64,000 nt of DNA. It comes from Mumia sp. Pv4-285 (lineage in GTDB: Bacteria; Actinomycetota; Actinomycetes; Propionibacteriales; Nocardioidaceae). Of this stretch, positions 56,486-59,429 are shown in pieces; positions within the stretch are counted from its first letter, which is position 1, and every line of letters starts with the position of its first letter. The notes beneath the pieces are model-generated. The model had not been told where the DNA came from. It saw only the letters and a program-made list of their open reading frames with translations, and ran no database searches. The position numbers and the translations under genes were made by a program. The stretch lies in assembly GCF_041320275.1 (NCBI RefSeq), contig NZ_CP162023.1, positions 2,356,001 through 2,420,000 of the forward strand, written 5' to 3'.

Positions 56486-57129
56486 GCGTCCATCCCCTCT
56501 GGCGTCCGTACGAGACGCCCACCCAGGAGCAGACCGACCGCGCGTTCGTCACCGGCACCGAGCCCCGCCTGGCCGGCGGCCACGTCGACGTCGTCCCGTA
56601 CGACTCCGCCTGGCCTGCCACGTACGCGCAGGTTGCCGATCGCATCAGCGGCGCACTCGGCGATCTGGTCGTCGCCGTCCAGCACGTCGGTTCCACCTCC
56701 GTGCCCGGCCTGTCGGCGAAGCCGGTCCTCGACATCGACCTGGTCGTCGCCTCCCCCGCCGACGAGGCTTCGTACCTCCCGGCGCTCGAGCGGCTCGGAT
56801 TCGTCCTCAGGATCCGCGAGCCGTGGTGGGAGGAGCACCGGATGCTGCGCCTCGACGAGCCGATGGTGAACCTCCACGTCTTCGGTCCGGACGCCGCGGA
56901 GCCGCACCGCCACCGCATCTTCCGGGACCGTCTGCTGACCGACGGTGCGGACCGGGCGGCGTATGCGCGTCTCAAGGAGGAGATCGCCACCCGAGAGGTC
57001 GGGACCGTCATGGCCTACAACGCAGCGAAGTCGGCGCTGATCTACGAGATCTACGAGCGGGCGTTCGCCGCCGATCCCGAGCACCCCCACGACCCGCAGC
57101 CGATCGACCCGGGCATCGCCGGGACCTAG
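56482..57129 (+). CDS. GrpB family nucleotidyltransferase-fold protein
   Basis: A 215-aa GrpB-like protein. The nucleotidyltransferase signature is HVGSTSVPGLSAKPVLDIDL (GS and D.D metal ligands). VNLHVFGPDAAEPHRHRIFR and AYARLKEEIA are also conserved family blocks. The reaction is unknown; some relatives are annotated as dephospho-CoA kinase partners. It is translated with the LysE gene by a 4-nt overlap. The TAG stop shares a CTAG palindrome with the stop of the convergent VWA gene. Confidence 0.9.
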   Translation: MSVHPLWRPYETPTQEQTDRAFVTGTEPRLAGGHVDVVPYDSAWPATYAQVADRISGALGDLVVAVQHVGSTSVPGLSAKPVLDIDLVVASPADEASYLPALERLGFVLRIREPWWEEHRMLRLDEPMVNLHVFGPDAAEPHRHRIFRDRLLTDGADRAAYARLKEEIATREVGTVMAYNAAKSALIYEIYERAFAADPEHPHDPQPIDPGIAGT

Positions 57130-58523
57130 ACCGGCAGCAGGCGCCCGACGACACGGGAGAGCTGGTCGACCGTGCGGCACTCGTGCATGTCGACGACCTG
57201 CGCGTACGCCGGAGCGACCGAGTCGCCCAAGCCCCAGCGACCCTCGTGCTCGGGGTTCAGCCAGAACGTCCGCCTCGCTCGCCCGACGATGTCACGCAGC
57301 GCGTCGAGGTCGGGGTCGAGGTGGTTGGCGCGCGCGTCGCCGAGGATCAGGACGCTCGTCCGAGGGCCGATCACGGCGCCGTAGCGACTGACGAACGACC
57401 GCAGCGCGCGGCCGTAGTCGCTCGAGGCGTGCCAGGGGGCGACGTTCGCGTTCGCCGCGATGCGCTCGGCGAGCGCGCCCGGATCCGCCTCGCCGCCGGT
57501 GACGAGCTCGGTGACCTCGTCGGTGTGGTTGACGAACGCGAACACCCGCACCCTGCTGAACTGTTCGTGCAACGCCTGGACGAGCAGCATCGTGAATCCC
57601 GCGAACCCGGCGACCGACCCCGACACGTCGCACAGCAGCACCAGCTCGGGCCGCGCCTTGCGCCGGTGCTCGAACACCGGGTTCAAGGGCACGCCGCCGT
57701 ACGACATCGACCGGCGGAGGGTCCGCCGGATGTCGACCTGACCGCGGTTTCGCCGACGGCGTCGGGCCGACAGCCGGGTGGCGAGCCGTCGTGCGAGCGG
57801 CTGGACCGTACGCCGCAGCTCGAGCACCTGCTCACGGCTGGCGGCGAGGAACTCGACCTGGCTGGCGTCCGGGCGGACGGCGTACTTCGCGACCCGGTCG
57901 CGCCCGCGCACCTCGGCCGAACGACGGCTCGCCTCGGTCTGGACGAGCTCGCGGAAGCGCTCGACGTCGCGGCGGACCTCGTCGCGGTCGAGTCGCTCGA
58001 CGAAGCCCGTCGTGCTCCCCCGCTGTGCGAGGGCGCGCACGATCGCGGTCTGTGGGCGCAGCTGCTCCAGCGTCTGACGGGCCGACCATCCGGCGCCGGC
58101 CGTCCCGGGTCCTGAACCGGCCTGAACCGCACCCAGCGCGTCGACCGCCGCTGCGGCGACGTCTTCGAGCGCCTCCCGGCCGCCGTCGGCGAGTGCCGCG
58201 ACGAGGTCGTCGCGGAGGTCGGCGACGGTGCTCGGCTGCTCGGTCGACTCCGGCTCCTTCTCGCGGATGGTCTCCCGTGCCCCGACCGCGGCCGGGAAGT
58301 AGACGTCGAACACCGCGTCGAACACGCGGCGCTGCCCCGTACGCCGGATCAGGGCGGCGGCGAGACCCTCGCGGAGAAGGTCGCGGTCAGCGAGCGACAG
58401 GACGCCCATCACCCGGGCCGCGTCCACGGTCTCGCTCGTGCCGACGATCAGCCCGTGACCGCGCAGCGACTCGACCATCGCGACCAGGCGACCGGGCACC
58501 CCACGATTTGACGCGTTATCCAC
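57126..58523 (-). CDS. VWA domain protein (CoxE-like), partner of MoxR
   Basis: A 465-aa protein. The C-terminal VWA domain (residues ~265-465) has the MIDAS motif in LLCDVSGSVAGFAGFTM. The N-terminal ~250 residues are helical and charged, as in CoxE/ViaA-type proteins. With MoxR it probably forms a chaperone pair that inserts metals or matures complexes. GTG 58523 begins 3 nt after the moxR stop codon, in a palindrome. Alternatives are GTG 58499 and ATG 58478 beyond it. No metalloenzyme genes are adjacent. Confidence 0.88.
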   Translation of the reverse strand: MDNASNRGVPGRLVAMVESLRGHGLIVGTSETVDAARVMGVLSLADRDLLREGLAAALIRRTGQRRVFDAVFDVYFPAAVGARETIREKEPESTEQPSTVADLRDDLVAALADGGREALEDVAAAAVDALGAVQAGSGPGTAGAGWSARQTLEQLRPQTAIVRALAQRGSTTGFVERLDRDEVRRDVERFRELVQTEASRRSAEVRGRDRVAKYAVRPDASQVEFLAASREQVLELRRTVQPLARRLATRLSARRRRRNRGQVDIRRTLRRSMSYGGVPLNPVFEHRRKARPELVLLCDVSGSVAGFAGFTMLLVQALHEQFSRVRVFAFVNHTDEVTELVTGGEADPGALAERIAANANVAPWHASSDYGRALRSFVSRYGAVIGPRTSVLILGDARANHLDPDLDALRDIVGRARRTFWLNPEHEGRWGLGDSVAPAYAQVVDMHECRTVDQLSRVVGRLLPV

Positions 58524-58565
58524 CCGTCAGCCCCGCCGTTCGGTGGACAACCCGTCAAATCGTGG
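58501..58565. repeat. Long palindrome at the moxR/VWA gene junction
   Basis: Arms 58501-58524 and 58542-58565 pair over 24 nt with only two mismatches; the loop is 17 nt. One arm encodes the final part of MoxR (PRFDGLST), the other the first residues of the VWA protein (MDNASNRG) if its GTG 58523 is used. It looks like an inserted REP-type element that has been kept in frame. Confidence 0.75.
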
Positions 58566-59429
58566 GGTGTCGTCGAGCTGCAGGTGCTTGCGGGCGCGGG
58601 CGACGTCGTCGGTGTGCTTGAGGAGCACACCCAACGTCTCGTCGACGACCGACTCGTCGAGCGACTCCGCTCCGAGCGCGAGGAGCGTACGCGCCCAGTC
58701 GATGCTCTCCGACACCGACGGCGCCTTGCGCAGGTCGATCCGCCGCAGGGCGTTGACGACCCTGACCAACGACGTCGCGAGAGTGTCGTCCACACCCGGC
58801 ACGCGCGAGCGTACGATCCGCTCCTCGAGCTCCGCGTCGGGGAAGTCGATGTGCAGGAACAGGCACCGCCGCCGGAGCGCCTCGCTCAGCTCGCGCGTGG
58901 CGTTCGAGGTGAGCACCGTGAACGGTGCGTGCCGGGCGGTGATCGTGCCGAGCTCGGGAACCGTGATGGCGTAGTCGCTCAGGACCTCGAGCAGGAGCCC
59001 TTCGATCTCGAGGTCGGCCTTGTCGACCTCGTCGATGAGGAGGGTGCTCGGCCGCTCGGACCGGATCGCCTGGAGCAACGGACGCGCGAGGAGGAACTCG
59101 TCCGTGAAGATGTCGTCGCGCGTCGCGTCCCACGTCTCCCCGCGGCCGGAGGTGATGCGGAGGAGCTGCTTGGCGTGGTTCCACTCGTACAGCGCCCGCG
59201 CCTCGTCGACACCCTCGTAGCACTGCAGCCGGACCAGGCCCGCGCCCGTCGCCTGGGCCACGGCGCGGGCGAGCTCGGTCTTGCCGACGCCGGCCGGGCC
59301 CTCGACCAGCAGCGGCTTGTCGAGCCTGTCGGCGAGGAAGACGGTGGTCGCGACGGACGGCGAGGCCAGGTAGCCGTAGACGGCCAGCTGCTCGGTGACG
59401 TCCTCGACGGAGGAGAAGCGTTCGCTCAC
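58527..59429 (-). CDS. MoxR-family AAA+ ATPase
   Basis: A 300-aa ATPase. Walker A is GPAGVGKTELA (residues ~44-54), Walker B LLIDEVDKAD, sensor 1 LTSNATRELSEAL with the Arg finger nearby (RRRCLFLHIDFP). MoxR proteins act with VWA partners as chaperones in complex maturation. GTG 59429 has TAGGCT 6 nt upstream. The C-terminal ~14 residues lie in a palindromic repeat and differ from usual MoxR ends. Confidence 0.93.
   Translation of the reverse strand: MSERFSSVEDVTEQLAVYGYLASPSVATTVFLADRLDKPLLVEGPAGVGKTELARAVAQATGAGLVRLQCYEGVDEARALYEWNHAKQLLRITSGRGETWDATRDDIFTDEFLLARPLLQAIRSERPSTLLIDEVDKADLEIEGLLLEVLSDYAITVPELGTITARHAPFTVLTSNATRELSEALRRRCLFLHIDFPDAELEERIVRSRVPGVDDTLATSLVRVVNALRRIDLRKAPSVSESIDWARTLLALGAESLDESVVDETLGVLLKHTDDVARARKHLQLDDTPRFDGLSTERRG

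Follow-up and report, generated by a model that had tools for sequence, protein, structure and literature searches.

A coding palindrome at a moxR/VWA junction in Mumia and its probable origin in a nuclease-linked family of dispersed repeats

How does a long palindrome come to supply the last codons of one gene and the first codons of the next? The question is raised by a 64,000-nt stretch of DNA from Mumia sp. Pv4-285 (contig NZ_CP162023.1, positions 2,356,001 to 2,420,000; the whole stretch is hereafter called the window), in which a moxR-type AAA ATPase gene and a VWA/CoxE-type gene meet inside such a palindrome. The repeat to which it belongs is dispersed in the genome, is linked to a nuclease gene, differs in sequence with the lineage of that nuclease, and alternates with full palindrome-gene-palindrome units at the same sites. 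We therefore consider it rather probable that the palindrome is a solo copy derived from a source unit in which two palindromes flank a gene for an AbiEi-like N-terminal half fused to a DUF559 nuclease, and that its spread is driven by this nuclease. The best reading of the system is that of repeats comparable to the repetitive extragenic palindromes (REPs) moved by RAYT transposases, with a Vsr-like nuclease in place of the Y1 transposase.

The palindrome and the two genes it joins

The junction palindrome is the strongest of five found in the window by a sequence-blind palindrome scan. In the repeat search its arms (58497-58524 and 58542-58569) are 28 nt long and 93% complementary, with two mismatches and a 17-nt loop between them. 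A preliminary description of the window had reported a long palindrome across the moxR stop and the VWA start, which is real; its 24-nt arms (58501-58565) are the inner part of the longer ones. The corresponding RNA (85 nt) folds at -51 kcal/mol (z -7.3), a value equalled by none of 200 shuffles, and a 13-mer of the arm, with up to two mismatches allowed, has 81 matches in the genome (41 and 40 by strand) against 25 for the reversed control. On the shuffled folds, the arm counts and the window-wide scan, a chance palindrome is rejected. A known structured RNA is rejected as well, as the eight Rfam matches in window positions 58001-59000 all lie below the gathering score.

On the coding (minus) strand, the 5' arm encodes PRFDGLST, the end of MoxR, and the loop encodes ERRG followed by the stop codon TGA; the listed VWA protein opens with MDNASNRG. 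Both termini thus come from the palindrome, as had been proposed. The listed VWA start codon is no ATG but a GTG, 3 nt past the moxR stop. A second in-frame GTG, from which the protein reads VPGRLVAM..., was picked by the codon-score gene call, and similarity to relatives begins at about this point; it is an equally possible start.

Six Mumia genomes were compared, that of the window (G000) and those of five congeners (G001 to G005), and the palindrome stands at the moxR/VWA junction in one of the six, the window's own; a covariance model of the repeat has no match at this junction in the five congeners. There, as read by eye, the moxR stop and the VWA start overlap as ATGA in G001, G002, G003 and G005 and as GTGA in G004. 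The palindrome of G000 occupies the place of a variable stretch between a conserved moxR end (CTCGACGA) and a conserved VWA start region, and it would have replaced the ancestral 4-nt stop/start overlap while both frames stayed open. In G003, another member of the family is found upstream of moxR (L091 3844-3914), a neighbourhood shared with the window copy.

With the moxR stop inside the loop and a GTG 3 nt further on, VWA translation probably continues to rely on ribosomes coming directly from moxR. A ribosome completing moxR would open the hairpin and halt in the loop next to the GTG, so that tight coupling is likely. Control of the MoxR/VWA ratio by the hairpin, suggested in the preliminary description, is plausible, since the loop contains both the moxR stop and a G-rich stretch and adjoins the GTG. 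The gene pair provides an example of a repeat that overwrites a gene junction and yet stays readable.

Dispersal of the repeat and its link to a nuclease gene

The covariance model was built from 31 copies, and places were counted at E <= 1e-3. It finds at least 23 in G000, a lower bound, as an additional copy at 3681103-3681174 escaped the model search. The earlier view that a dispersed repeat has been captured as coding sequence is thus borne out: the arms recur in the genome instead of being unique to this locus, and the junctions of all five congeners, once compared, have other termini and no palindrome. The copies are fixed in length (69-72 nt, about 71), with conserved outer stems and loops that vary in sequence but are constantly 17-18 nt long; compensatory changes occupy 75 cells, the mean after shuffling being 34. 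Type A copies, to which the window copy belongs, carry neither a GTAG nor a CGTC tag, while type B copies begin with CGTC but are long and have large loops.

Most copies stand alone. Among the 90 examined in G000 to G005 (for the congeners at least that many, counted among the matches listed), 79 are solo. In the counts of their context, from which three copies of other genera (L082, L083, L200) had been removed, 40 lie between convergent genes, 26 between tandem genes, three between divergent genes and 10 inside predicted genes; the genes come from a home-made codon-score caller, of which these 10 may be errors. Convergent pairs are more frequent around solo copies (40/79) than among adjacent gene pairs of the window (8/51), and for 62 of the 79 copies a gene 3' end is no more than 30 bp away. 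In some copies the neighbouring gene stops at the TGA within CGATTTGA of the stem, and its protein then terminates in, for instance, PTI or PAI (Table 1).

Some copies come in pairs, about 1 kb apart, that enclose a single gene for a protein of about 300 amino acids. Its N-terminal half is AbiEi-like (PADLOC AbiEi models, best 2e-14 and 2e-18), and its C-terminal domain scores above the DUF559 cut-off (24.2 and 26.2 bits against 20.6), with the acidic residues E179, D212 and E223 invariant in 31 of 31 homologues. Among solved structures, 3hrl (endonuclease-like, 1e-5) and 3r3p (mobile intron protein, 0.0028) come closest. The product is accordingly predicted to be a Vsr-like (DUF559) nuclease of the PD-(D/E)XK type. 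Homologues at E <= 1e-25 are present in 99 of 148 genomes of the class. Four plasmid records hold distant matches; a scan of viral contigs with the nuclease profile gave no relatives, and a virus origin is rejected on this ground.

The bracketing of this gene is specific. Counted blind to sequence, palindromes lie on both sides of 22 of 26 near nuclease genes and have alike stems at 21, compared with 2 and 1 of 186 control genes. Six of the 26 loci had been found through their palindromes and the other 20 were hand-picked by protein match; among the 20 chosen by protein match only, 16 have palindromes on both sides and 15 have alike stems. Class-wide, where the best match in each of 30 genomes was taken, the figures are 21 and 18, and the bracketed loci fall in the families labelled f1, f7, f15, f16, f20, f32 and f36. 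Among these 21 pairs, three (L285, L296, L297) consist of unlike stems and could be background, and two of the nine misses are contig ends (L289, L299). Typically, one palindrome lies 55-160 bp upstream of nearly every homologue and the second downstream of the stop codon. At two loci, the upstream side of the gene holds a series of repeated palindromes or arms (L247 1226-1450 in G005, with 83-bp spacing, and L245 1264-1346 in G000). At the family f20 loci L284, L286, L288 and L290, the nuclease genes are bracketed by TTGATCTTGGAG-type palindromes, whose stem is unrelated to the Mumia types.

The sequence of the stems follows the nuclease. Left and right of one gene, a mean of 15.2 of 16 stem positions are identical; the figure falls to 13.9 for the most similar proteins and to about 11 for distant ones, and stems are unlike between paralogues. 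Over the 26 loci, protein similarity and palindrome similarity are correlated (Mantel r 0.52; none of 2000 permutations as good). Solo copies can be assigned in the same way. Of 20 in G000, nine clearly resemble the flanks of nuclease gene #1 (1024420-1025322) more closely and 10 the flanks of gene #2 (1773363-1774244), with L138 as the one undecided case. The window copy goes with #1, at 47 of 71 positions compared with 35 for #2. For a distant third paralogue (#3, 30% identical), dispersed copies of its stem were predicted, and 26 genome matches were found against 6 for the reversed pattern. With G002 left out of the assignment, solo copies match the nuclease flanks of their own genome in 17 of 17 cases in G004, and match them best or tied in 19 of 22 in G003, 14 of 20 in G000 and 5 of 9 in G005.

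At some sites full units and single palindromes replace one another. Between a pyruvate-carboxylase-type and a dihydrolipoamide-dehydrogenase-like gene (names read from domain matches), palindrome, gene and palindrome are present in five Mumia genomes (L231, L236, L183, L234, L167), and G000 has one palindrome and no nuclease gene; this palindrome is of its own #2 type (55/71 positions against 30). At the meaB/citrate synthase site, the full unit is present in G000, G003 and G004, a single palindrome in G002, and a different, shorter lone palindrome, GTGAGCTGGTGCGG, in G001 (L314 1424-1482); in G005, no palindrome was seen in the 210 bp past meaB. Solo terminal repeats, or unoccupied targets, would give this kind of alternation. 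The GTGAGCTGGTGCGG palindrome of G001 resembles the type of a distant paralogue in G004.

If copies are rewritten in concert, same-site palindromes of different species should follow the type of their own genome. In 41 of 46 comparisons the same-site copy is less close than the best own-genome copy, but the latter is the best of many. An own-genome copy drawn at random is the closer one in only 53% of 852 comparisons, and among all copies of the other genome the same-site one ranks first in 12 of 46 cases, with a mean percentile of 0.65. Homogenisation of copies within a genome (concerted evolution) is thus suggested by evidence that is mixed.

Known systems and rival explanations

Among bacterial palindromic repeats that have an enzyme of their own, REPs, with their Y1 transposase, are the best known. 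They are described as palindromes of 20-40 bp with a terminal GTAG or CGTC tag, and have been reported in other phyla; that text does not name Actinobacteria (0 occurrences; PMC3733652). As in the REPtrons outlined there, the Mumia palindromes are dispersed, mostly extragenic and at times inside genes, the same palindromes flank a dedicated gene, and the families are lineage-specific. It is very improbable, however, that they are ordinary REPs mobilised by a RAYT (Y1, HUH) transposase: they share the layout of dispersed extragenic palindromes around a gene, but the flanked gene encodes a Vsr-like nuclease, the repeats measure 69-72 nt with 17-18-nt loops, and type A copies have neither tag. 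Y1_Tnp (PF01797) is matched in none of the six Mumia genomes, while the control search gave matches in 5 of 14 known genomes, and REP/RAYT proper is rejected on this result.

Rickettsia palindromic elements (RPEs) are likewise captured in reading frames, and the Mumia repeats resemble them in that the palindrome is read as codons within genes or at their ends. They differ in having a linked nuclease gene; CGTC REPs, among which RPE-4 and RPE-6 are named, lack a dedicated transposase according to PMC3733652. With the Vsr-fold homing endonucleases represented by 3r3p, the nuclease domain is related in sequence (E 0.0028), but the Mumia gene has no intron or intein, is flanked by palindromes, and has an AbiEi-like N-terminal half. 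This half is shared with the antitoxin AbiEi of the AbiE type IV toxin-antitoxin systems, with the difference that it is joined to a nuclease domain. The adjacent nucleotidyltransferase toxin AbiEii is absent from the ten neighbour genes tested with Pfam at several loci, which are unrelated metabolic and other genes, and no obvious partner appears in the gene maps of further nuclease loci.

As for the mechanism, the nuclease may recognise its own palindrome, be it in duplex, hairpin or cruciform form, and cut at or beside it; repair or copying would then spread either the palindrome alone or the entire unit, in a manner similar to that proposed for RAYT enzymes and REPs, and insertions would survive chiefly at gene 3' ends. 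Mobilisation by the nuclease, with its cutting, its copying and the direction of change, is what we infer from the arrangement and distribution of the repeats. A wider claim is offered tentatively, as quite possible: that this is a class of selfish or domesticated elements widespread in Actinomycetes, in which a Vsr-like nuclease with an AbiEi-like, predicted DNA-binding half recognises a lineage-specific hairpin, carries it to the 3' ends of genes and rewrites existing copies in concert.

The chief rival supposes that the AbiEi-like domain binds the palindromes as operators, the pair autoregulating the gene and the dispersed copies serving as regulon, roadblock or insulator sites, with no spreading. 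AbiEi antitoxins bind inverted repeats at their promoters, and the AbiEi-like N-terminus and the nearly constant upstream palindrome fit this. We nevertheless judge it unlikely, given that the second palindrome sits downstream of the stop codon, that solo copies lie mostly at 3' ends and not at promoters (three of 79 being divergent), that the nuclease residues are invariant, that the stems are far longer than usual operators around a loop of constant length, and that a solo copy stands in for the whole unit at the same site. The copies might also be bidirectional terminators or mRNA-end hairpins, selected at gene ends and spread by ordinary recombination, with the nuclease gene an incidental neighbour. 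Their very stable folds, their compensatory changes and their excess between convergent genes would agree with such a role, whereas the bracketing of nuclease genes far above control genes and the match of stem sequence to nuclease lineage would not, so that this explanation appears improbable. Flanks read by eye, no terminator scan having been made, are G+C-rich and show no T-run behind the hairpins, and an intrinsic (Rho-independent) terminator with a T-run is rejected accordingly.

Several observations weigh against nuclease-driven spread of the repeat. We saw neither a transposition event nor a target duplication nor an excised form, and the change at moxR/VWA is a replacement rather than a clean insertion. 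The palindrome pair is missing from nine of the 30 class loci and from four of the 26 near loci. In G001, just 2 of 8 solo copies match their own nuclease flanks best, and in G005 the own-flank rule holds only in part; at L232 of G001, the palindromes at 1481-1536 and 2536-2599 are of unlike types, as if one side had been exchanged. Finally, an AbiEi-like N-terminus resembles an antitoxin or regulator and also fits the operator explanation.

With nuclease-driven spread retained as the preferred reading, the palindrome-nuclease system looks like an undescribed kind of spreading repeat. No description of palindromes linked to DUF559/AbiEi genes was found in the open-access literature as far as it was accessible, preprints and most subscription papers lying outside the search. 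If the reading is true, a second, unrelated enzyme family is linked to its own palindromes in many actinobacterial families, and this lifestyle arose more than once. The uncharacterised AbiEi-DUF559 fusion genes, of which there are often several per genome, gain a concrete hypothesis; and as the predicted substrate of each protein is written on both sides of its gene, the idea is directly testable.

Coordinates and a conserved site

The features of the junction and the copies referred to above are collected in Table 1.

Table 1. Positions of the junction features (window numbering) and of selected palindromes elsewhere
Feature	Sequence	Position	Strand	Basis
Palindromic repeat, solo copy, type A	window	58497..58569		repeat search, folds, covariance model 78.4 bits (model match 58498-58568)
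17-nt loop with G-rich stretch and moxR stop TGA (58529-58527)	window	58525..58541	-	sequence, repeats, open reading frames
moxR-type AAA ATPase gene, 300 aa, last codons from palindrome	window	58527..59429	-	open reading frame; Pfam AAA_5 7e-12
VWA/CoxE-type gene, 465 aa from GTG 58523, first codons from 3' arm	window	57126..58523	-	open reading frame; Pfam VWA_CoxE 2.4e-47
Alternative in-frame VWA GTG start (58499) at palindrome edge	window	58497..58499	-	sequence; codon-score gene call; homology onset nearby
Paralogue #3-type palindromes	G000	1282452-1282540, 1292433-1292480, 2015565-2015612, 3050027-3050073, 3718233-3718280		
Copies supplying neighbour's stop via CGATTTGA		L057 1779-1850, L064 1618-1688, L069 1535-1605, L077 1585-1655		
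Copies at tyrosine recombinase/parA-type site		L063 1519-1589, L073 1528-1599, L155 1505-1576		

Between a tyrosine recombinase gene and a parA-type gene, three Mumia genomes keep a palindrome in the same position, with stem types that differ among them.
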